A DNA stretch of 64,000 nucleotides from Prorocentrum cordatum (Eukaryota > Sar > Dinophyceae > Prorocentrales > Prorocentraceae), in assembly GCA_963575745.1 (NCBI GenBank), contig CAUYUJ010000729.1:46059-110058 (forward strand), read 5' to 3'. Each line of letters opens with the position of its first letter. Position 1 is the first letter of the stretch. The position numbers and the translations under genes are program-made. Shown in pieces: positions 36,575-57,244 of the stretch. The notes under the pieces are model-generated. The model did not search any database. It worked only from the letters and a program-made list of their open reading frames with translations, and was not told the origin of the DNA.

Positions 36575-36773
36575 AGGTGGTGTCTTAGTATTATTATTAT
36601 TCCCATTATTATTATTAGTAATATTATTATTCGTCTTTTGATTCCTCTTATTATTCTTCTGTTTCTTCTTATTATTTTTATGCTTAACATTCTTATTAGT
36701 CTAACTATTATTCTTAGTAGTACTCTTATTATTCTTCTTATTATTCTCCTCCTTCTCCTCCTCCTCCTCCTCC
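36575..36773. repeat. (ATT)n to (TCC)n microsatellite, 5' flank of LINE
   Basis: ATT-rich repeats change into CTCCTCCTC repeats that abut the first base of the LINE element. The sequence on the far side of the element resumes with the same (TCC)n, so the element lies inside this tract. Confidence 0.9.
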
Positions 36774-36795
36774 TCCGTAGCCATTTTGGCTCAAG
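36774..36795 (+). other. Relict dinoflagellate spliced-leader (DinoSL) sequence
   Basis: The 22 bases match the DinoSL: T as the variable first base, then CCGTAGCC, then ATTTTGGCTCAAG. An SL RNA gene would be followed by a GT splice donor; here the next bases are CCGTTCTGG, so this is the exon joined to other sequence, as in a trans-spliced mRNA copied back into DNA. It is the first 22 bases of the LINE and sets its 5' end. Confidence 0.93.
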
Positions 36796-36907
36796 CCGTT
36801 CTGGCACAGGTGGCGACCCTGTGCTTGCACGCGCGCACTTCAGAGCGGCTCGCGCGCGCGGGCCATTCTTCTCGAACCTCTCAGGCCAGCGGGCGCGCCC
36901 GCGGCGG

Positions 36908-38047
36908 ATGGGCAAGGCGTGGCAGTGCGGCAACTGCGCAAAGCAGCATGGCGGGGCGTTCGAGAACTACGGGTTCAGGACGCACTGCTACCGCTGCGGC
37001 CATGCCGCCCCGCGCTCGGCTCAGCAGCAGAGCTGGCCTTGGAGGTCGGGCTATGGCTATGGAGGAGCAAAGGCTGAGAGGCCGAACCGCTGGGCTGCGG
37101 GGCCGCCCCGTCTCGGGCGCGGTGAGCAGAACGCTCAGGCGGACGCTCAGGCACGTACCACTGCAGCCCCTGGCGGGGACGCCAAGATCATCGAGACGGA
37201 CCCTGCGACAGCGAGGACCATGCTGGCCAGCATGGCCAAGGCGCATGGCGACGATCGATCGAGCTGGCCTGACGACTGCAAGCAGCTCGTTGCCGTGTGG
37301 GACAAGGCTGCGCAGTCCGAGCCAAAGGAGGACGAGGTGTACCAGGCACCCGACTATGATAACATGTCATCGTTCCAGCTTGGCCAGCGCATGCAGGGGG
37401 TCACTCAGAAGCTGGACAAGGCCAAAGAACGACTACGAGACCGAGAGGCAGAGCTCGAAGCAGCGTTGGAAGCCAGAGACGCCGAACGTGAGATCGTGCG
37501 CAACCACGAGAACAGGAGGCAGAAGATCAAAGAAGCGCAGGCTGCAGCTTTCATGCGGGAAGCCGCCGATGGAGGACACGCCGATACCGCGCATCCAGCT
37601 ATTGCTCTCTGTGGGCAGGTGGCCAACCTGCAGAAGCGGTTGGGCAAGCCTGGGATGCCTGATGAACTCGCTGGGCCTCTCAAAGCGCTTCAGCAAGCGC
37701 TCGAGTTGCTCGACAAGCAGCTGGCCGAGAGAGAGCAGCAGCAGCAGCAGCAGCAGCAAGCGAATGTACCCAACCAGATATGTCAGCCTGTGCATGCTAA
37801 CGTTGATGATGATGATGTTGATATGGCTGCTGACATTCCCGTACCTGACGAAGCAGATTACGAAGAAGTCTTCGAGCAAGTTGGACTCAAGCTGGATGGG
37901 GTTGACTCAGACGAGGAGAGCAAGCGAATCAAGGCAGCCAGAAGCCGCATGCTCGAGACAATGGTTGCAGTCAACATGGCCGCTGTTGCAAAGCGGCGCA
38001 AAACCCAGCCCCCAGCTACTGAACATGCGCAAGGCGGTCATTTGTGA
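36908..38047 (+). CDS. LINE ORF1: zinc-finger / coiled-coil RNA-binding protein
   Basis: A 379-residue protein that probably binds the element RNA to form the ribonucleoprotein particle. I chose ATG 36908 because upstream in-frame sequence is SL leader and simple repeat. Residues 5-30 form a RanBP2-like CxxC...CxxC zinc finger (W5, C7, C10, N20, C27, C30). A long charged heptad-like stretch follows (about 156-215, rich in KAKERLRDREAELEA-type sequence), then a second helix and a Q8 run near 277-284. A DDDDVD acidic patch and a basic KRRK near the C-terminus follow. The 5' UTR from the SL end is 112 bases. It shares the frame with ORF2. Family assignment rests on architecture and neighbours. 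Confidence 0.8.
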   Translation: MGKAWQCGNCAKQHGGAFENYGFRTHCYRCGHAAPRSAQQQSWPWRSGYGYGGAKAERPNRWAAGPPRLGRGEQNAQADAQARTTAAPGGDAKIIETDPATARTMLASMAKAHGDDRSSWPDDCKQLVAVWDKAAQSEPKEDEVYQAPDYDNMSSFQLGQRMQGVTQKLDKAKERLRDREAELEAALEARDAEREIVRNHENRRQKIKEAQAAAFMREAADGGHADTAHPAIALCGQVANLQKRLGKPGMPDELAGPLKALQQALELLDKQLAEREQQQQQQQQANVPNQICQPVHANVDDDDVDMAADIPVPDEADYEEVFEQVGLKLDGVDSDEESKRIKAARSRMLETMVAVNMAAVAKRRKTQPPATEHAQGGHL

Positions 38048-38182: not shown

Positions 38183-38845
38183 GTGGGCTACGGACAGGTG
38201 GTTCACGCTTTGGATCAGGTGCTCGTGCGTTTGGGAGTGCCTTTGGGAACTGGAGATGTCTCTAGTATTGGTGGTAGGGCTGAACCCTCTGAGCTGGCTG
38301 CCGACGGGCAGGTGGTCGCTGCCCAGTTCAGAGGCGATCCGCCCCGCGGGTCCTGCGACGGGAGGTCAGCCCTCGCAGGGGAGTGCAGAGGAGGCCCTGC
38401 CACCCATGAACGACGAGTACGCGACAGCGGTGGTGCTGAACCCTCTGGTCTGGCTGCCGACGGGCAGGTGGTCGATGCCCAGACTGGAGGAGATCCGTCC
38501 CGTGGGTCCTCCGACGGGAGGTCAGCCCCTGCAGGGGAGTGCAGAGGAGGCACCACCGCGCATGGACTACGAGAGCGGTCAGATGGCACTGGGGAGCTCG
38601 ATGCTGATGCTGCAGTGTCGACGCAATCGCGACATGAGAGAGACTGGAGTTTTGTCACGGTCAATATCACGGCGGCGCAGAAGGAAGCGGTCAAGATGGT
38701 GCTAGTAGCCACAGAGATCACAGAGATGTTTCCTAACACGGATGGCATTTTGCTTCAGGAGCACAAGATTCTCAAAGGTAACACCGGAGACGCGCAGATG
38801 CGTCTACAGCACCAAGGTTGGAATTGCCATATACCGTCGGCTTAG
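38183..38845 (+). pseudogene. LINE ORF2 N-terminal part: duplicated linker and start of endonuclease
   Basis: This frame continues ORF2 upstream. Its last ~70 residues hold the first endonuclease motifs: an N in VTVNITA and the catalytic-type E in ILLQEHK. It stops at TAG 38843-38845, and the same frame then resumes with SSGVAVGVRQDIASA and the rest of the endonuclease. The stop is therefore internal to a domain and looks like a nonsense mutation. The first ~120 residues contain two copies of a ~52-residue unit (GRAEPSELAADGQVV... and GAEPSGLAADGQVV...). Frame +1 of the linker is also open and equally protein-like, so the true ORF2 start is unclear. Confidence 0.7.
38279..38590 (+). repeat. 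156-bp tandem duplication inside the LINE
   Basis: GCTGAACCCTCTG(A/G) begins at 38279 and again at 38435. The 156-bp unit is a multiple of three, so the duplication keeps the frame. The copies differ at multiple sites, so the duplication is older than this insertion. Confidence 0.85.
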
Positions 38846-38911
38846 AAAGGTCAAGGACATGCCGCCAGCTCTGGAGTCGCGGTTGGAGTCAGACAAGATA
38901 TTGCGTCAGCG

Positions 38912-41900
38912 GTGCCGCCTGACCTTGGGGGAGTTTGTGCACCACAGTGGAGATGGGCTATGCAATGGGTCGATGGTATGCTGCCAGGTGGGTTCATTCT
39001 TGCGTCCATATACTTGATATCAGGGCACAAGGTGCGTGACTATGAAGACGAGAACAAGCGAATCATCATGCTGGTGATGGAGCAGCTGCAGAGGCTAGGC
39101 AGGCCTTTCATCATAGGCGGGGACTGGAATATGACTCCTCAAGAGCTCACCGACCTTAACATTCTTGCACAGGTACCAGCGATGATAGCAGCTCCCACGC
39201 AATGGACATGTGCATGTGGAGAAGGACGAGTGCTCGACTACTTTGTGGTCAGCCAGCATTTCAAAGGACTCATTATGGATGTGGCCAGGATTGAGGGGCT
39301 CTCGATAGCGACGCACTGGGGTGTTCGGCTCCCGCTTCGTGCGGGGCCAGGTGCAGCTCTTGCACAACAGCTCAAGGTTCCAAAGAAGTTGCCCAAGGTA
39401 TGCCCGCTAGGAGCAGCGCCCCCGCCGCCATCAGATCAGCAAGTTCAGCGTGAATGTGAACATGCCACAGACCGTGAGGACCTACATTGGTGTTTCTCTC
39501 AATGGCATGCTTTAGCTGACCAAGAACTCGTTCGCCGATTTCAACTAGAGGATCGACACGGACGAGCTTGCAGGGGGCGGGCACAGTTCACAGAGCCCGA
39601 ATTCAAGATGGTGGCTGCGGTCCGCAAAGCGCCAGGACACTCACCTCCAGGAGATCCAAGGTCCAGACAGTGGAGGCGTGCTTCAATGGTCATGGTTGAT
39701 CTCATGCATGCAAGCAAGCGGAGTTGGCCCACAGACTGCAAATTCATGCAAGACAGGCTTAACACCATGCAGAACCTCAAGAGCAAAAGGCTGGACATGG
39801 GCGAGGCTTGGGACATATGGTGCTACAGGTATGATAACGAGTTCAGTTGGGAGGATGAGTGGTTGCGAGAAGCTAGCTGGACTGCGGCGAAGGAAGCTAC
39901 TACCTTGGAGGTAAAGCTTGCTAATAGCCGTGTGAAGCAGTGGCGCAAGTTGATTGCGGATGTGATTGAGAAGGGCGGTAAGCAGGCGCACAGATGGTCT
40001 AAGCTACCCGCGATGTGGACACAGGCTGACATACACCCCACGCAATGTGTGAGATCCCATGCGCTCCGTTTACAGTCAGACTTGGAAGAGTGGAAGCAGG
40101 TGTGGAGATATCAACAGGGAGAGCGAAGTTTTGGTGAAGGTTTACGATTACAGACACATGACGAGGAGGTGAAGATGTTAGATCCTGCGAGCATCAGGAA
40201 GGTGGCCACTACATTTAAGGTGAACACTGCTTCAGGTATTGACAACCTAGGCCCCAGGAATGTCGCCTTGCTCTCAGACAACGCGCTCACAGCTTTCGCC
40301 GAGCTCATGCACAAGGCCGAGACCATAGGGGAGTTGCCACCGCAGCTCACCTACAACATCATGCCCCGACGCCCAAAGCCTGAGGGCGGACATCGACTCA
40401 TTGGGTTGCTACCTGGCCTTCTTCGAGTATACAACAAGTGCCACAAAACGGACCAGCAGGAATGGCTTAATAAGAACGTCAAGGACTACCACTATGCTGT
40501 TGCAGGGCGTAGTTCTGAGCAGGCGGTATGGTCGCAATCACTTCTTGCAGAAGCTGGGCTTGCTCTCAAGAGGCACACAGCAACTGTCATGCTTGATCTC
40601 AAGAAAGCGTTTGAAAAGATTCCCCATGCCACTTTATGGGACGTTGGCTGCCGACATGGTTTCAAGAGGTCAAGATTGGCGCTGCTACTCAAATCGTACG
40701 CTGGTGGGCGCATGATCAAGTATGGCGACATGGTGTCAGGGGCGGTCAAGACGAATCACGGTGTCATTGCGGGATGTGGTTTCGCGACTACGATGATGAT
40801 GCTATTCACTTTAGGGGCTTACGAACAGGTGTACAAGTTGTGGCCGTCACTCAGCATAACGCAAGTGGTGGATGATGGGAGCTTGCAAGCTACGGGTACG
40901 CACGACCAAGTCCTCAAGATTATCATACCAGTTGCCCGCATGCTGTGTAAGGAGTTGGCGGGGCTTGGACTGGAGCTAAGCCCGAGCAAAGGACACGTAA
41001 TAGCGACCAGCACTCAGTTGGAGAAGCAGATTGAGGCGGCGCTAAAGCAGCATAAATTTCGGAGGCATCGCAAAGTGCGACAGCTCGGTCATGATCGGAC
41101 TTTACGACAAGGATCAGGAGGAGAAGTACAGCATGCTCGGGTACTCGCCACATCTAGAAGAATTTGTCGGTACAGACGTTTGGCTATGGGTGGACGACAG
41201 ATGGGACGACTATTCAGAGGAGGAGGTTTGGCGTCAGTCACCTACATTGTCAAGGTCAAAGGGATGCCAGATACACAATTAAAACAAGTTAGGAGCATAG
41301 CTGGTCATGCACTGTTTGGATCAGCGCGTGGCAGGTGCAGAACCATGGAGTTTCAACTATCCCACTGTCCCCGAGCTGATCCTACCTTTGCGGCGGATGA
41401 ATATCCTGTGGTATATTGGCTCAGAGCGATGCACGGACAGTGGGTGAAGCACCGCGCGATGGCCTTGGCCTTTATGCAAGCACAGAACAACGGAGGTACA
41501 TGGAGGAGTGTACGAGGGCCAGCGGGCGCAGTGGTGCTCACTCTCAAGCGACTGGGATGGAAGGCAACGGCGTGGGATTGTTGGCATACCGAACGTGGGA
41601 TGAAGTTAGATTTACACGACATAGGCCCTGCGACGCTCAAGAAGATAGTCAATCAAAGTACACAAGGACGCCTACTTCGTGAGATACCACATTCTAGAGG
41701 TATGGAAGGGCTCACTGGCCCGCCTTTGCTTGAACCTGCCAAGCGCTTCATCACTCAGCTCAGGGCACAGCAGGATTTCCAAGGTGCTGGGCTCGTTCGC
41801 ACTTGGTTGGCAGGAGGTTTCTTATGCCAAGAGCGCCTGCATCAATTTCGAGCAGTGCATAGCCCCTTGTGTGCAAAGTGCGGGGTGGAAGCTGGCACGG

Positions 41901-43141
41901 ATACTCATCGTATTTTTCGATGTGACTGGCATGCGCTAGAGCGTTTCAGTTGGACAGGGGAAGAACGCGCCTTGCTACGATGGGGACGTAAAGAACATGG
42001 GCAGCGACATCCACACACAATGATGACGACAAAAGGCTTGATGGAGGACCCCACCTTCAACTCACCGATGCCGACCAGCGACAACATAATCAACTGGCAC
42101 AAGTGCACTGTTAGTGGACTCATCAGTGGTGTGGTGTGCATTGATGGCAGCTGTATGTTTCCACATTGTGAAGTTCGAGCACGCGCTGGATGGTCCCTTG
42201 TCATGATTGATGAGGCTGGTGCTACTGTGGCGGCGGCTTCGGGACCTGTACCGCACCCCTGGCAGACCTCAGGTGCTGGTGAAATCTGGGCCGCAACAAA
42301 GGCCTTGCAGCACAAGTCAGCAGGGCGCATCACTATTGTCACTGACTACAAAGATCTCAAGACAGCATGGACGTTGGGATTTCCATACGGGTGCCAGGCT
42401 GGGCATCACTATATGGAACTGTGGAAGACTTGTTGGCGGGTTGCACAAGACATCGGAGTTGGCGAGATTGAATTCGAGTGGATCCCCTCGCACATGACGA
42501 GGAGCAAAGCTATTGATCAAGGAATCAATATGACGTACTGGAACGGGAACAGAAGTGCTGACTACTATGCGAGAATGGGGGCGGACGGCCACCAACGCGA
42601 GAGGCCCAGTGAGAAGGTCAGGAAGCTACGGGAGGCCGCTGTCCCGCTCACCTTGAGATGTGTGCTGCGCATCTTGCGGCTGTGTCAGAAAGGAGGATGG
42701 AGTGATGCACAGGTGAATGAGAGCAGCAGAGTAGATCGCAGTTCCTTTGTGGTCCTCTCTGAAGATGGAGGACATGTCATTCATAGGTTTAGGGGACGAT
42801 GGGTGTGCGGAAGGTGCGGAGATAGCCGTGCTCGGCGGTGTGACCTTGCGGGGCTCCCGTGTGGTGGTGACCCGAAAGGGGTCAGAGAAGCGCACCCGTC
42901 CCATAAGCTCTGGCGTACTGGCCCAATGATCTGGTGTTCAGAATGTGCTGCTAGGTGTGTCTCGCGGGCTTTTCTCATTTCTAAGCCGTGTTTAGGTAGG
43001 CCGCCCTTGGGTTCTCCGAGGCATTTCAAGAGGAGGTACCTCATCCAAGGGAAAGGGCCCTCTGGAGAGAAGGTTGGTTGTGGTTTCTACAGACCTGTTC
43101 CATTCTTCGCTTGTGTTGATCGCTGTGTTCGGCGTGTCTGA
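38912..43141 (+). CDS. LINE ORF2: endonuclease (C-terminal part), reverse transcriptase, RNase H
   Basis: A 1409-residue frame (open from 38846) that copies element RNA by target-primed reverse transcription. The endonuclease end is seen as GGDWNM (69-74), DYFVVS (109-114) and THWGV (134-138), where the usual Asp before His is Thr. Reverse transcriptase: HRLIGLLPGLLRVYNK (about 494-509), MLDLKKAFEKIP with D562, and VVDDGS with D654/D655. A conserved dinoflagellate LINE thumb follows (RHRKVRQLG ... LFRGGGLASVTY). A CCHC-like knuckle lies at C987/C990/H999/C1004. RNase H has D1078, E1124, D1145 and D1217. The C-terminus has CxxC pairs (C1299/C1302, C1342/C1345). The endonuclease-RT-RNase H order fits the I-type group, though clade needs a tree. 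The listed start is only the first ATG after the internal stop. Confidence 0.88.
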   Translation: MPPDLGGVCAPQWRWAMQWVDGMLPGGFILASIYLISGHKVRDYEDENKRIIMLVMEQLQRLGRPFIIGGDWNMTPQELTDLNILAQVPAMIAAPTQWTCACGEGRVLDYFVVSQHFKGLIMDVARIEGLSIATHWGVRLPLRAGPGAALAQQLKVPKKLPKVCPLGAAPPPPSDQQVQRECEHATDREDLHWCFSQWHALADQELVRRFQLEDRHGRACRGRAQFTEPEFKMVAAVRKAPGHSPPGDPRSRQWRRASMVMVDLMHASKRSWPTDCKFMQDRLNTMQNLKSKRLDMGEAWDIWCYRYDNEFSWEDEWLREASWTAAKEATTLEVKLANSRVKQWRKLIADVIEKGGKQAHRWSKLPAMWTQADIHPTQCVRSHALRLQSDLEEWKQVWRYQQGERSFGEGLRLQTHDEEVKMLDPASIRKVATTFKVNTASGIDNLGPRNVALLSDNALTAFAELMHKAETIGELPPQLTYNIMPRRPKPEGGHRLIGLLPGLLRVYNKCHKTDQQEWLNKNVKDYHYAVAGRSSEQAVWSQSLLAEAGLALKRHTATVMLDLKKAFEKIPHATLWDVGCRHGFKRSRLALLLKSYAGGRMIKYGDMVSGAVKTNHGVIAGCGFATTMMMLFTLGAYEQVYKLWPSLSITQVVDDGSLQATGTHDQVLKIIIPVARMLCKELAGLGLELSPSKGHVIATSTQLEKQIEAALKQHKFRRHRKVRQLGHDRTLRQGSGGEVQHARVLATSRRICRYRRLAMGGRQMGRLFRGGGLASVTYIVKVKGMPDTQLKQVRSIAGHALFGSARGRCRTMEFQLSHCPRADPTFAADEYPVVYWLRAMHGQWVKHRAMALAFMQAQNNGGTWRSVRGPAGAVVLTLKRLGWKATAWDCWHTERGMKLDLHDIGPATLKKIVNQSTQGRLLREIPHSRGMEGLTGPPLLEPAKRFITQLRAQQDFQGAGLVRTWLAGGFLCQERLHQFRAVHSPLCAKCGVEAGTDTHRIFRCDWHALERFSWTGEERALLRWGRKEHGQRHPHTMMTTKGLMEDPTFNSPMPTSDNIINWHKCTVSGLISGVVCIDGSCMFPHCEVRARAGWSLVMIDEAGATVAAASGPVPHPWQTSGAGEIWAATKALQHKSAGRITIVTDYKDLKTAWTLGFPYGCQAGHHYMELWKTCWRVAQDIGVGEIEFEWIPSHMTRSKAIDQGINMTYWNGNRSADYYARMGADGHQRERPSEKVRKLREAAVPLTLRCVLRILRLCQKGGWSDAQVNESSRVDRSSFVVLSEDGGHVIHRFRGRWVCGRCGDSRARRCDLAGLPCGGDPKGVREAHPSHKLWRTGPMIWCSECAARCVSRAFLISKPCLGRPPLGSPRHFKRRYLIQGKGPSGEKVGCGFYRPVPFFACVDRCVRRV

Positions 43142-43215
43142 GGTTCTTTTTGTGGCTTGGTGCATCGTTCTCGGCACACCTCGTCGTAATCCAGAGTCTC
43201 CAGAGCCTCCGTTTC

Positions 43216-43797
43216 CTCCTCCTCCTCCTCCGTTTCCTCCTCCTCCTCCTCCTCTTCCTCCTCCTCCTCCTCCTCCTCCTCCTCCTCCTCCTCCTCCTCT
43301 TCCCCTGAGCGCGGCCGCGGCCGTTCGGTGGCCCTCCTCCGTTCGGTGGCCCCCGCCCCTCCTCCTCCTCCTCCTCCTCATCATCATCATCATCATCATC
43401 AGCATCATCATCATCATCATCATCATCATCCACTTCCTCCTCCTTCTCCTCCTCCTTCGCCTCCTCCTCCTCCGCCTCCTCTCCCTCCTCCTCCGTCCCA
43501 TCCTCCTCATCGTCCTCCTCATCCTCCCTCTCCCTCGTTCTCCTCTTTTTCTTCCTCCTCCCCCCTCCTCATCCTCCTTCTCCTCCGCCTCCTCCTCCTC
43601 CTCCTCTTCAGCGGGCGGGGGCTCGTGGCCGCCCGCCCGACTCGCGCGGCGGCCGCCCGAGCAGAGGACGCATTTGGGTATCCGCGACAGCAAACGCATC
43701 CAGGGTTGAGCCCCCCCCCCGCCCATGGGGGGGGGAGGGCGGCGTGCCGCGGCCGCGTTCCAGCGGCGGAGAGGATGAGGAGGAGGAATGGGAAGAG

Positions 43798-52127: not shown

Positions 52128-52210
52128 GTCTGTGACATGTGTTTTCCAGAGAGGCGAGGAGCGTCCCGATTGAATGCTTGCATCGCCCGTGGCATACATG
52201 CTCAAGCGCA
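52128..52210 (+). repeat. Split direct repeat A1
   Basis: 83 bp, starting GTCTGTGACATGTGTTTTCC. It matches A2 (58450-58532) with two differences (T/C at the GAA(T/C)GC site and C/T at CT(C/T)AAGCGCA). It contains a pyrimidine-AG string (TGTTTTCCAG) that could be a trans-splice acceptor; that role is speculative. Confidence 0.95.
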
Positions 52211-52211
52211 T

Positions 52212-52661
52212 ATGGACCTGCTTCAGCTCGGCGGGGTCCTCCGAGAGCTCTCTCACCTCTCCCTGCATCTCAGCAGCAGCCTGCAATCTTGCCCTCCGTG
52301 CCCGTCGCTGATCTGCCCGCACGTGGAGTGCGGCTCCCTGTCGTGCGGCGCGCCAGGCCAGGCGGCAGTGCCTTGCGAGGCTCGGGCGCCCGAGCCGCCG
52401 GCCGCTGCGCCGGCCTGGCCGCTGCTGGTGGTTTTCGCGGCTGGTGTGGCCGTCGGCCTGGCCGTGTCGCCTCGCCTACGACGCGCTCCAGGCGGAGCGG
52501 CTTCGGCGCCCTCAGCGGCGCCACGGGCCGCCGCGGCCCCAGAGCCGGCCGCCTCGGCAGCGGCGCCGACAGCACTGGCGCTGACATCAGGTCCGACGAC
52601 GGGGCCAGTGACACCTTCATCGAGGCATGGCTGCAGTGCCGCGGTGCCCGGACATTCCTGA
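52212..52661 (+). CDS. Small single-pass membrane protein ORF of the PAT-like element
   Basis: A 149-residue product beginning one base after A1. Cys residues 27, 30, 35, 40 and 45 form a Cys-rich N-terminal segment, followed by a Pro/Ala hinge and one hydrophobic segment at about 69-87 (WPLLVVFAAGVAVGLAV), then an Ala/Pro/Ser-rich tail. It overlaps the gag-like ORF by 35 bases in another frame. I recall similar short Cys-plus-membrane ORFs ahead of the gag-like ORF in dinoflagellate retroelements, but the role is unknown. The ATG at 52212 is preferred because the frame upstream runs into A1 and simple repeats. Confidence 0.55.
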   Translation: MDLLQLGGVLRELSHLSLHLSSSLQSCPPCPSLICPHVECGSLSCGAPGQAAVPCEARAPEPPAAAPAWPLLVVFAAGVAVGLAVSPRLRRAPGGAASAPSAAPRAAAAPEPAASAAAPTALALTSGPTTGPVTPSSRHGCSAAVPGHS

Positions 52662-53787
52662 GTTCCAGGTCGCCGTGCGCTTCGATGATGATCCTAATTT
52701 CACTTGGCATCATCGTATCCTGTTGCGACGAGTTCGAGACGCTGTGTGGATCACGCTCACTCCAGATCTCGACCTCGAGAGGATCAATCTGGACGAGCGA
52801 CGGCATCGGGTGCTCGAGCGAGGGCAGGCCTTTCCTGATGCCATCGCTGGGGACCTCTACGCCTTCGACCCGATCGGACGAGAGGCGGTCGCAGGGCACA
52901 AGAGACGTGCCCAACTTCAGGCGGCCGTGCTCGGCGGCGACGAGGACGAGGCCATGGACGCTGAGGAGTGGGTCTATGCTGACCTCGAGGACCCAGCGTT
53001 CGGGACGCTCGTCGCCGCCGATGTCCTCGAGGGGGACGAGTTCGTGGAGCTGGGCAATCGCGGGCTGGCGCGCCGTGAGGGTACCGCTCGTGGGGTCGAG
53101 AAGGTGGGTCGTGCCCGACTGGGAGAATGGTCCGAGCAGCGTCGAGTCGGCGCCGAGGACATCAGGAGCTTGGGCGTCCACACTGCAGCAGACGGCACAC
53201 GTCACCTCGGGTGGACGGACGCCGTCGGCATGCTGCGCGAGAGCGACATGCCTGAGTGGAGGTTCGAGGGGCCGCGAGTGTGCAAAGAGCTGGCGGCCTC
53301 GATCCGAGAAGGCGCAGGGAACCCGACTTCCTATCACGCCGAGTGGATCAGGTTGTCGGGGGTCGACCAGAACAGCGCCATCGCCTATGAGCACAAGAAT
53401 GCCATGGAGATGCTGCGCGTGGCCACCAGCACCGACCAGGTGGACATCAGCAACCTGGCCTCGTTCGAGCTCCTCGCGAGGCGGGTCGTCATGCTGGAGA
53501 TGGCGGCGGCGCGCGACCCCAGGGATCCCGACTTCAGTGGGCTCGGGGTCATCGCTGACGGCGCTGTGGGGACCGACGGTGCTGCACGAGCGCCAAGGTT
53601 CCGCACCTGGGTGTCTGATCGTCAGAAGGAGAGGGCGAACATCCTCAAGCAGTCGAGGTTGTACAAGGAGGAGACCAGGAACGAGAGGGAGAGGAGGCGC
53701 GGCCCGAAGGGGCCAAAGGGCGGCGATGCGAAGGGCAAAGGCAGGGGGGCTGGCGGCCAAGGAGCCGAGGCCCCTCTGCCGAGTTAA
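52627..53787 (+). CDS. Gag-like protein of the PAT-like element
   Basis: A 386-residue protein, probably the structural or RNA-binding partner of the polymerase. The N-terminal ~65 residues read FDDDPNFTWHHRILLRRVRD then AVWITLTPDLDLERINLD, a pattern typical of this ORF in dinoflagellate retroelements. The middle is helical and charged. The C-terminal ~40 residues are strongly basic and Gly-rich (RNERERRRGPKGPKGGDAKG), fitting nucleic-acid binding. No CCHC knuckle is seen. Its stop TAA (53785-53787) is followed at once by the in-frame ATG of the polymerase ORF. Confidence 0.78.
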   Translation: MAAVPRCPDIPEFQVAVRFDDDPNFTWHHRILLRRVRDAVWITLTPDLDLERINLDERRHRVLERGQAFPDAIAGDLYAFDPIGREAVAGHKRRAQLQAAVLGGDEDEAMDAEEWVYADLEDPAFGTLVAADVLEGDEFVELGNRGLARREGTARGVEKVGRARLGEWSEQRRVGAEDIRSLGVHTAADGTRHLGWTDAVGMLRESDMPEWRFEGPRVCKELAASIREGAGNPTSYHAEWIRLSGVDQNSAIAYEHKNAMEMLRVATSTDQVDISNLASFELLARRVVMLEMAAARDPRDPDFSGLGVIADGAVGTDGAARAPRFRTWVSDRQKERANILKQSRLYKEETRNERERRRGPKGPKGGDAKGKGRGAGGQGAEAPLPS

Positions 53788-56643
53788 ATGGCGCCCGACG
53801 GCCCGCAGGTCACCAAGGCCGACTGGTGGCCTGGCGGGGAGTGGAGGCACGGAGGGCCCTTTCCTCTTCCTGTGCCTGATGTTCGGCAGTATCCTCGTGG
53901 GGCCCCTCACTATGTGCAGCAGAGGTGGTGGCGCTCCACGACGCGGCAAAGGCTTGTTAGAGATACAGTACTTGGTGTCAACCAACTGGCGGCCGCTCAA
54001 GCTAACAATTCGCACTTTCGACGGTCTCCGCTGGCGAGCTCGACTCCTGCAGCAGTCCAGCGGGAGATGTTGGCGAGTCTCGAGGATCGGGTGGGGCGTG
54101 CAGGCCTGGTCCCCGACGGACTCTCTCCGAGCAGAGCCCTCCGGGAGCTCTTCAAGACGAAGGACCTGCACGGTCAAGAGCCACGTCACCTTGCCAGTTA
54201 TGATCCAGCCAAGCTGCGAGTGGCCAAGGGAGTGGTGGAACCCAAGGATGCGAGAGCGCTGCTACCACCTCATGCAGCTCAGAGGCCCCGACGCTATAAG
54301 ACGTGCATCGAGCTGTCCGCCGAGGAGATCGAGGCCAAGTTCGCCTCCGAGCCCTCGCCCAAGCCCTACTGGGACCCCGTGCTGCGGCGCAACAAGCGAG
54401 CCCGGCACGAGCTGTTCGAGCGTCTCCTCTCTTCGGGCATCCTGGTGCCTAGGAGGCGTCTCAAGGGCCGCATCGGACTCTTTTTTGTCAAGAAGAAGGA
54501 GGAGGCCATTCGCCTCATCGTGGACGCCCGCTACCCGAATGCCTGCCACAAGCCGCCGCCCACCACGCAGCTGGGGACCGCGCAGTCCTTCGCGGAGCTC
54601 AACCTGGCCGAGTTCGCGGACGTGGCGGCGGAGATGGCGTCTCATTGCGTTCTGCCTGGTGCTGGGGGCGTCCCGGCCCTGGACTTTCACCAGAGTGGCG
54701 CCGACGTGCGCGACGGCTTCTACCAGTTCAGCATCGTCGAGGTGGCCGACTGGTTCGGGATCGACGAGTCGTTCAGCAAGGGGAGTTTTGGCATCACCAG
54801 GGTGTTCGACCCCGAGCTGGGCGTGGACGTGGAGCTGGCCAAGCACGAGTCCTTCTACCTCTGCATGGGGGCCATGCCCATGGGATGGTCGTGGGCCCTC
54901 TACTTCTGCAACGAGGCGGTGGCCTCCCGCGCGGCGGCTGTGGCTGCCGACGGGTGGGGCAGCTTGCTCCGAGAGCGCGCCCCGGCCCCCCGCCTGGTCC
55001 CTGGTCGGCCCGCCCACGCCGTGTACGTGGACAACCACACAGGGCTGGGGCATAGCGCCACGGACGCGGAGCAGGCCCACCAGGACTTCCGCGCGCAGCG
55101 TGCCGCCTTCGGCCTCGACCTCCACGACGAGGTCCCCTGCAGTCCCTATCTCGAGGCTCTCGGGCTGCAGTTCGACGGGCCAGGCCGCCGCCTGCGGCAT
55201 CGGTCCGCCCGCCTTTGGCGCTTCAAGCTGGCAACTGCGGCTCTGCTTCGCCGCCGTGTGGTGGCAGGATGGCAGCTCGAGATCTGGCTGGGCCACGCCG
55301 TTCAAATGCGCGGCCTCTGCCGACCCCTTCTGTCGATCCTGTCACAGAGCTACGCCTGCGTCGCGGCTCACAAGGAGAGGCCAGGCCGCCTGTGGCGAGG
55401 CGTACGGCGCGAGCTCTGGCTCATGTCCAACCTGGTCTTCACCTGCGAGGTGGAGCTGGACGCGCCGTTCAACTCGTCGGTCTACCTCGGCGACTCGTCG
55501 GGCTACGGCTACGCTCTCATGGAGACGAAGGGCACAGGCGACGAGCTGTTGGAGGACTTCAAGTGGAGGGAGCGCTGGAGGTTCAAGGCCGCGCCGCCGC
55601 TGCCTCCGCCGCCACACCCGACCTCGGGGGCGTCGGGTGCGGCTTTCGGGGTTTGTTTCGACGGCGACGATCCCGAGCAGCTGGAGGCGTTCGGTGAGCC
55701 CCACGTCGTGGGGAGGACCGCCTGGGAGCCGCTGGGGGCCCGGACCCGCCTGGCGCAGTGGGCCGTCGAGGCTGCCCACACTGCCGAGGTCGGGGCCGAT
55801 CCCAAGCGACGCAGACGGCGGCGCTCGGCCCGAGGGGCCGCGCCGCGTGAGGAGGTGGAAGGCTTCGAGGCCATCCCCGTGGTCGGCGCCTGCTGGGACA
55901 ATAGGCGGCGCTGGCGTACGCTGGTGGAGGGCTTCTGGCACTGGAAGCAGGAACACATCAACGTCAAGGAGGCTAGGGTCTGTCTCATGGGTATCCGACG
56001 TAGCTTGCGGACCAGACGGGGCTGCCACCGCCGGCTGCTCACCCTGTCGGACAACCTCGTGTCCGCCGTGGTGTTCGACCGCGGCCGCTCGTCGAGCTGG
56101 GCGCTCAATGCGCTGCGCCGCCGCGCCGCGGCCTACCAGATTGCCGGCTGTGTGGCATGGCGGGTTCGCCACATCCGCACGGACAGGAACCACGCGGACG
56201 AGGGCTCCCGTCGTCCCCGAGTACCGCGAGTACTGGTACCCACGAGACTTGAGGGTGGGGCGCCCGCGGCCTCTCAGCGGATGGGAGGCCGCCGCCTGGG
56301 CGCGCCTCGACATCATGGCACGCCCCAGGCGATCCAGGCCTCGCTCGAGCTCTTCTCAGGCTCAGGCCGACTCACCGCTTCTCTCAGGCGCTTGGGGCTG
56401 CGAGTCCTGCCAGGCGCCGAGATCAGGCGCTCCGCCCGATATGATTTGTCACGTCGAACGACGCCGCGAGCTGTGCTGCGTTGGATTCGGAGTGGGAAGC
56501 TCTGGTACGCACATCTGGGGACAGCGTGCTCCGCCTGGTCAGTCGCCCGCTCCACGCCTTGTAAACATCGAGCGGGCGCGGCGGTTGGAGGCAGTTTCTG
56601 TCGACATGGCGCTCTTCACAGCTGGGGTCATCAAAGAGTGTGA
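53788..56643 (+). CDS. Reverse transcriptase - RNase H - methyltransferase (N-terminal part)
   Basis: A 951-residue frame. Reverse transcriptase motifs: LFFVKKKEEAIRLIVDARYP (about 231-250), GADVRDGFYQF with D306, MGAMPMGWSWALYFCN (360-375) and YVDN (413-416) in the catalytic box, with Asn in place of the second Asp. RNase H: D569 in YLGDSSGYG, E728 in NVKEAR, D755 in LSDN and D804 in NHADEGSR. A methyltransferase-like domain then starts with LELFSGSGRLTASLRR (853-868) and GTACSAWSVAR (911-921). The homologous sequence continues in the next frame from about 56561, so the last ~30 residues here are out of frame. A basic low-complexity loop (about 600-690) lies within RNase H. Confidence 0.88.
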   Translation: MAPDGPQVTKADWWPGGEWRHGGPFPLPVPDVRQYPRGAPHYVQQRWWRSTTRQRLVRDTVLGVNQLAAAQANNSHFRRSPLASSTPAAVQREMLASLEDRVGRAGLVPDGLSPSRALRELFKTKDLHGQEPRHLASYDPAKLRVAKGVVEPKDARALLPPHAAQRPRRYKTCIELSAEEIEAKFASEPSPKPYWDPVLRRNKRARHELFERLLSSGILVPRRRLKGRIGLFFVKKKEEAIRLIVDARYPNACHKPPPTTQLGTAQSFAELNLAEFADVAAEMASHCVLPGAGGVPALDFHQSGADVRDGFYQFSIVEVADWFGIDESFSKGSFGITRVFDPELGVDVELAKHESFYLCMGAMPMGWSWALYFCNEAVASRAAAVAADGWGSLLRERAPAPRLVPGRPAHAVYVDNHTGLGHSATDAEQAHQDFRAQRAAFGLDLHDEVPCSPYLEALGLQFDGPGRRLRHRSARLWRFKLATAALLRRRVVAGWQLEIWLGHAVQMRGLCRPLLSILSQSYACVAAHKERPGRLWRGVRRELWLMSNLVFTCEVELDAPFNSSVYLGDSSGYGYALMETKGTGDELLEDFKWRERWRFKAAPPLPPPPHPTSGASGAAFGVCFDGDDPEQLEAFGEPHVVGRTAWEPLGARTRLAQWAVEAAHTAEVGADPKRRRRRRSARGAAPREEVEGFEAIPVVGACWDNRRRWRTLVEGFWHWKQEHINVKEARVCLMGIRRSLRTRRGCHRRLLTLSDNLVSAVVFDRGRSSSWALNALRRRAAAYQIAGCVAWRVRHIRTDRNHADEGSRRPRVPRVLVPTRLEGGAPAASQRMGGRRLGAPRHHGTPQAIQASLELFSGSGRLTASLRRLGLRVLPGAEIRRSARYDLSRRTTPRAVLRWIRSGKLWYAHLGTACSAWSVARSTPCKHRAGAAVGGSFCRHGALHSWGHQRV

Positions 56644-57244
56644 CCGCTGTGGCGTACTGTGGTCGCTGGAGAATCCTGCCAGCTCGAAGTTGTTTCGCTT
56701 CGAGCCCCTTGCTGTCCTTGCCAGTCTGTCAGACGCCCGATACGTCTCGTTCGATCTTTGTGGATTCGGAGAAAATGTTCGCAAACCGACCACCATCTTC
56801 ACCAACGCCATCTGTCTGGACATCCTGGGGAGAAGATGTGATGGGTCACACCGTCATGAGCCTCTGCAGGGCGGGCTCAAGGCTGGAGCCTACTCGCCCG
56901 CCCTCTGCCGAGAGTGGGCTGCCGCGCTATGCTCGGCGGCGCCTCCTCAGGCCTTCGGCGACTCCGAGCCGCTCGCCTCCGAGCGGGACACGGAGCTGGA
57001 GGCGCTGGTGCCGCGGTCGCATGGTGCTGCAGCGAAACTCGGCGAGGCTCACGGCGGGACTGACGCCGAGAGCCGCGGGCAGCACTTCCTCGCGCGCCAC
57101 GCCGTCGAGTTCGGCGGCGCGCGGGGTCATCAAGGCGGCCCTGAGGCCGCCGCAGCGGCAGCAGGGCCGTGCGGCTGTCGGCGAGGAGAAGGAGCGGCTG
57201 GCGGTGGCGCGCAGGGCGCGGGTCCCGCCTGCGGCGCGCGATGA
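56561..57244 (+). pseudogene. Methyltransferase-like domain, C-terminal part in shifted frame
   Basis: This frame is +1 relative to the RT ORF. It carries the rest of the domain: VSVDMALFTAGVIKECDRCG, then SLENPASSKLFRFEPL (about 56660-56710), then YVSFDLCGFGENVRKPTTIF and a CREWAAAL ending. The FxGxG, ACSxWS and ENP motifs across the two frames resemble cytosine-C5-type methylases, and an MT domain here is a known feature of DIRS/PAT elements. It has no useful ATG, so it needs a +1 shift to be made or it is broken in this copy. Confidence 0.75.

Follow-up and report, generated by a model that had tools for sequence, protein, structure and literature searches.

A copy in the DNA analysed here very probably represents a LINE that takes (TCC)n as its insertion target, has its canonical 5' end at the A of AGCCGTTCTGG, and was reverse transcribed, through the host's spliced leader (SL), from a read-through RNA that had been trans-spliced. 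No other reading accounts for these sequences nearly as well as trans-splicing with subsequent reverse transcription, a process that appears to be recurrent. The first-pass annotation had proposed that the LINE RNA was trans-spliced and then copied to its very end, and this is now well supported by what is directly observed: precise ends at an AG, SL copies that are scattered through the family (5 of 28) and repeatedly joined at the same AG, SL units nested in one another, and, in sister families, target-site duplications (TSDs) lying directly outside the SL.

The window (the whole 64-kb stretch of DNA that was analysed) carries the element between 36796 and about 43206, flanked on each side by TCC-rich repeat, and we classify it as a LINE (non-LTR retrotransposon) by its reverse transcriptase domain and the TSDs of its family. 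ORF1 (36908..38047, + strand) encodes 379 aa with a Cys-rich N-terminus and, judged by eye, a coiled-coil-like middle; it had no Pfam match above cut-off. Its homologue P0007 (41% identical, 97% of the query covered) comes from a transcriptome labelled Pyramimonas sp., in which contamination or prey is a possible source. The ORF2 frame (38183..43141, + strand) contains a reverse transcriptase (RVT_1, E 1.7e-10, 41.4 bits; cut-off 29.6), a weak endonuclease match upstream of it (Exo_endo_phos, E 8.2e-4, 19.6 bits, under the cut-off of 24.5), and an RNase H match that is under its cut-off. One in-frame stop (38843-38845) interrupts the endonuclease region at a place where 7/7 relatives examined are open, so the window copy itself is probably not autonomous. 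A 156-bp tandem duplication (38279-38573) lies near the start of the ORF2 frame. The element closes with a 3' UTR and 3' end (43142..43206, + strand) reading ...TCCAGAGTCTCCAGAGC, without poly(A), and is followed by a TCC-rich target tract on its 3' side (43207..43606, + strand), placed by repeat search and 3'-end comparison. Elsewhere in the window, 52139-57244 holds a 1701-codon open frame without a Pfam match.

At the start of this element stands the full 22-nt dinoflagellate SL, TCCGTAGCCATTTTGGCTCAAG (36774..36795, + strand, 0 mismatches), which runs straight into the LINE start CCGTTCTGGCACAGG. It is the sole SL match in the 64-kb window at <=3 mismatches, and a chance match is ruled out, the match being exact against a shuffle mean of 0.01 (100 shuffles). 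Genome-wide (4.13 Gb, 21,875 contigs), there are 14,218 exact SL 21-mers and none of the reversed control. The bases directly 3' of the SL are CCGTTC rather than a GT donor, and 112 bases lie between the SL and the ORF1 ATG (36908), bearing out the earlier description of an exact SL at the LINE start, at this distance from ORF1 and with no donor. The (TCC)n target microsatellite upstream, detected as a tandem repeat (36746..36776, + strand), overlaps the first three SL bases; since this microhomology makes SL bases 1-3 (TCC) indistinguishable from target, 19 nt of the SL are certain in this copy. The last two SL bases, AG (36794..36795, + strand), stand where the 23 family copies without an SL have their own first AG, and would be the trans-splice acceptor. 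The TSD of the window copy is uninformative (TCC only), and this copy has no extra G at the SL.

A family signature (28 nt of the element start, <=1 mismatch) had 28 matches in the genome and none for its reversed control, and all 28 were inspected with their upstream flank; two of 30 BLAST loci (L042 and L047) lack this anchor and fall outside the 28. Five copies are SL-headed (the window copy, L032, L033, L035, and L043), and 23 start with AGCCGTTCTGG without an SL. The earlier claim that the SL is the LINE's 5' end thus stands for the former and fails as a description of the usual end, which is AGCCG without an SL. SL copies are therefore a recurrent minority, in which the SL serves as an alternative to the canonical 5' end, namely the AG that opens a conserved pseudoknotted RNA. 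The two contrary patterns named in the first-pass annotation, which had proposed this count, are absent, in that the SL heads four family copies besides the one in the window and nothing but repeats was seen to be shared in the 70 nt upstream of the copies read (by eye). A TCC-rich tract precedes 28/28 5' ends, whether directly, before the SL, or, in L037, past six Gs that separate the tract from the AG; the other 22 of the 23 non-SL starts lie directly behind pyrimidines.

The SL joint falls directly after the element's AG in four of the five SL copies. In L043, GGG between the SL and AGCCG shows that the SL was joined 5 nt upstream of the usual joint, and in L126, a member of the wider superfamily, GC in the same place puts the joint 4 nt upstream. 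L035 carries the SL plus two CCATTTTGGCTCAAG units, giving three nested SL units in the published relic register, which suggests three rounds of trans-splicing and reinsertion. On the family tree (1.75 kb), the SL state changes five times and SL copies adjoin non-SL relatives; a single SL clade is rejected (p-AU 9.75e-5), and the change counts do not separate SL gain from SL loss.

Insertion sites were compared at both ends of the element. Sixteen 3' regions were fetched, of which 14 gave a 3' end (L060 and L066 had no match), each reading CCA[G/T]AGC and then passing, without poly(A), into TCC-rich sequence; the window copy ends CCAGAGC, likewise. The same target thus recurs at independent insertions, being TCC-rich before 28 5' ends and after 14 3' ends plus that of the window, consistent with a LINE whose sequence preference directs it into (TCC)n microsatellites. 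Informative (interrupted) TSDs of about 16 nt were found in four of the 14 copies with both ends read (L024, L034, L037, and L046), the remaining TSDs being pure repeat or partial. In these four non-SL copies, the 5' end lies exactly at the A of AGCCG, which indicates that the upstream tract comes from the target rather than from the parent, with the AG contributed by the element. Derivation of non-SL copies from an RNA containing the parent's TCC tract is accordingly ruled out wherever the TSDs are informative. LINEs that target microsatellites, such as Koshi, Kibi, and Waldo, are inserted in simple repeat with repeat at both flanks; what sets the present LINE apart is a pyrimidine repeat upstream that, together with the element's own AG, makes up an acceptor-like site.

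Genome-wide, there are 468 junctions of an SL with CCGTTCTGGCACAGG at <=3 mismatches (reversed control 0), and the 20 of these joins that were fetched represent many distinct families, some with a decayed or partial SL. L080 has nested SL units in the register of splicing at the SL's internal AG. For five SL-headed LINEs of sister families, the flank before the SL was compared with the 3' flank; four of the five 3' parts fetched match window ORF2 at 24-28% identity. TSDs of 12 nt (L088) and 14 nt (L091), each followed by a G, lie directly before the SL, with the target continuing with C, and L090 has a 26-nt TSD directly before the SL with no extra base. The comparison was uninformative for L082 and gave no convincing TSD for L086. 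Because the TSDs of L088, L090, and L091 lie directly outside the SL, the cDNA inserted there came from SL-headed RNA. A cap-derived G is known at human L1 ends, and the extra G of L088 and L091 resembles it. An extra G accompanies the SL in 4/5 SL copies of the window family versus 2/18 other SL loci behind pyrimidine tracts (6/23 overall; 39 sites obtained from 45 loci supplied), and the latter figure rules it out as a universal cap mark.

Two further groups of SL-headed elements were seen. L088 and L140 belong to a sister family with an A-rich 3' tail, the window family being without poly(A). L085, L095, and L096 form a LINE-like family in which partial nested SL units precede a different 5' sequence (CCTACCGTGGGCAGGTGGCGCCTG plus a near repeat); L095 is identical to L096 over 484 nt, perhaps as an assembly duplicate.

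With SL sites taken in contig order, 14 of the first 20 (L001-L020) lie behind a perfect TCC/GGA tract of >=15 nt within 45 nt, a situation found at 2.0% of 4,324 background flank positions. Taken with the SL ends carried by LINEs, the frequent location of sampled SL sites in the same TCC/GGA repeats points to the retroposition machinery, and because most of the first 20 sites adjoin such repeats, LINEs of this kind or their relatives may mobilise host mRNAs too. For six of these sites, chosen by eye from the reading frames present, 5 kb of sequence was examined, and three have a reverse transcriptase homologous to that of the window element. Two of the three (L003 and L010) sit in (GGA)n tracts, so upstream pyrimidine is a feature of the window's class of LINE and not a general condition for SL capture. 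The SL-headed LINEs in (GGA)n (L003/L067 and L010/L069) have an orientation opposite to that of the window family. L005 and L017 share an SL-headed repeat (90% identical over 1.5 kb) with an open frame from an ATG right after the SL; L005 had no Pfam match.

The 5' end of the element holds a conserved RNA of about 71 nt (36794..36864, + strand), near-invariant in the 28 copies and with covariation across families. Its predicted structure combines a stem of AGCCGTTCTGG with TTCAGAGCGGCT, a hairpin (CACAGG/CCTGTG), and a pseudoknot helix (36823-36835 with 36851-36863, + strand; strand coordinates counted by hand). Most of the 20 SL-joined loci that were fetched share the arrangement AGCCGTTCTGGC - hairpin - GCTTG-B - TTCAGARCGGC - B'-CGRGC. 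The exact pattern AGCCGTTCTGGCN{20,50}TTCAGARCGGC occurs at 948 places in the genome (reversed control 0). From the first 100 places listed, in contig-number order, 40 members were taken systematically, and the 33 with distinct B' strands entered the covariation test (7/40 with a repeated B' were dropped). In both the B/B' helix and the hairpin, strands from the same member among these 33 pair better than strands from different members, with 0/20,000 permutations reaching the observed mean in each case. For 15 loci from the SL-headed set together with the window family, 0 and 1 of 20,000 pairing permutations did so (8/28 loci fall outside the structural pattern; 15 of the remaining ones were tested).

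No relevant Rfam family matched the window at gathering score, nor the window 5' end or 16 sister loci at a relaxed E-value, and the same searches returned no HDV-family match. Identity with an HDV-like ribozyme was rejected, given this lack of an Rfam match and a 7-bp P1 (assigned by hand) that would need its 3' strand in the variable linker. The strand order of HDV differs from that of the 5' RNA, which is P1, hairpin, P3, P1', P3'. With HDV-like identity dropped, this RNA may yet be self-cleaving. Its thermodynamic folds are unremarkable (z -0.80 and -0.72), and such folds cannot show pseudoknots.

Of the 40 superfamily members read, 27 have at least 90% pyrimidine in the 20 nt upstream and 13 have less; an SL stands exactly at the AG in none and is displaced in one. 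Among the first 100 superfamily places listed, at least six are SL-headed (by overlap of two listings), versus 5/28 in the window family. Since most copies are without an SL (23/28 in the family; 39/40 superfamily members read), the SL is not required for mobility. The 15 nt after the AG in the window match SL positions 8-22 at 11/15, a level reached by 0.0125% of 15-mers in the whole window (+ strand; 8 places). The 40 members, which are not independent of each other, match at 10-12/15; their mean of 11.4/15 is not an independent measure, because the search pattern fixes 10 of the 15 positions and 8 of these match by construction. Descent of the 5' motif from an SL relic is plausible on these comparisons, and mimicry, hairpin constraint, or chance are possible alternatives.

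We propose that the LINE inserts into (TCC)n with its first A beginning the conserved pseudoknotted 5' RNA. Since its insertions mostly follow pyrimidines, the junction has a pyrimidine tract plus AG, which is the form of a trans-splice acceptor, and this AG would act as the acceptor in RNA. Transcripts running in from upstream, with host read-through as the likely outron, would be trans-spliced at the AG to give SL-CCGTTCTGG... RNA, from which ORF1 and ORF2 may be translated; the full-length copies suggest that both frames would lie on one SL-capped RNA. The LINE machinery would then reverse transcribe the SL-headed RNA through the SL into a new site, sometimes with one cap-like G. The non-SL end at A1 could be formed by a start site, by self-cleavage, or by an exonuclease block. 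The displaced joints of L043 and L126 fit a read-through RNA spliced at a neighbouring AG. Counterpoints to this scheme are the SL-headed L003 and L010 in (GGA)n, the 13/40 superfamily members with <90% pyrimidine upstream, and the six Gs of L037.

The AG common to the SL and the element at the joint offers 2 nt of microhomology, by which reverse transcriptase at the 5' end of the LINE RNA might have jumped to SL RNA or an SL-capped mRNA, the LINE RNA never having been trans-spliced. We consider such template jumping improbable, given the added bases between SL and AGCCG in L043 and L126, the nested units of L035 and L080 in register with splicing at the SL's internal AG, and the exact joint of the four remaining family copies. 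A little less probable again is descent from one old SL-headed founder, with the SL inherited rather than recurrent and lost from other copies by transcription starting at the AG. The resemblance of superfamily 5' ends to SL positions 6-22 (partly fixed by the search pattern) would accord with such a founder, as would the erasure of the SL at each round that a start at A1 entails and a tree that leaves gain and loss unseparated. Yet the five SL copies would need five changes on that tree, the SL is intact in those copies but superfamily starts have diverged from it, and nested units would need renewed trans-splicing.

It is very improbable, finally, that an SL relic already lay in a TCC tract and the LINE happened to insert directly behind it. 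SL relics are indeed common and often lie behind TCC/GGA, as the first 20 sites listed illustrate (14, against the 2.0% of 4,324 flank positions), but TSDs enclose SL and LINE together in L088, L090, and L091, refuting chance insertion for those three, and the joint of five family copies falls on one base or 5 nt away from it.

SL relics on host mRNAs that were reverse transcribed and reintegrated are established in dinoflagellates (Slamovits and Keeling 2008, via PMC3229502 and PMC12014239) and include nested truncated SL units cut after the AG at SL position 7 (PMC3229502, PMC12014239). Such SL-tagged retrocopies are many and are attributed only generally to retrotransposon activity (PMC12014239). 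Our copies resemble these retrogenes, as described there, in having an SL or nested SL units at the 5' end and in the same register; unlike retrogenes templated by host mRNAs, the template here would be a LINE with its own reverse transcriptase and a visible target preference. In Schistosoma mansoni, the authors raised the possibility that six SL-containing elements are trans-spliced, retro-transcribed elements, and did not exclude chimeric assembly (PMC5832876); for the elements studied here, the reading is supported by TSDs and nested units, by a tree, and by the many copies. SL-tagged retroposition of host mRNAs was thus known already, and SL-bearing retroelements had been suggested before.

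The L1Tc/ingi LINEs of trypanosomatids carry a 5' Pr77 promoter/HDV-like ribozyme, and Pr77-driven transcripts are reported to be unspliced (PMC8190864, PMC4035085). They too are LINEs of a trans-splicing host, and a conserved RNA of 70-80 nt likewise forms their very 5' end. Unlike Pr77 RNA, the RNA here has a strand order that is not HDV's and no Rfam ribozyme match. Cer1 of C. elegans bears SL1 on a spliced 2.4-kb RNA, SL1 not having been found on its 8-kb RNA (PMC3315495); it too is a retroelement with an SL-bearing RNA, but an LTR element. SL-headed LINEs of dinoflagellates, the AG design, and the 5' RNA were not found described in the open-licence literature available.

Rather doubtfully, the scheme might extend to the LINE superfamily (948 places for one exact pattern) as a whole being built on host SL trans-splicing: a pyrimidine-repeat target plus the first AG would make the acceptor and yield an SL-capped mRNA without a promoter of the element's own, and the 5' pseudoknot RNA would have arisen from an SL relic that was captured (AGCCATTTTGGCTCAAG to AGCCGTTCTGGCTCAGG), and might be a new RNA fixing the non-SL end by self-cleavage or exonuclease block. 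The conserved 5' RNA is widespread, at those 948 places, and its function is amenable to bench test. Our data suggest that a dinoflagellate LINE sometimes copies itself from RNA bearing a host-added SL, and that its usual pyrimidine-repeat targets look acceptor-ready. If this is true, a mobile element uses the host's capping-by-splicing, and its targets may complete the splice signal.
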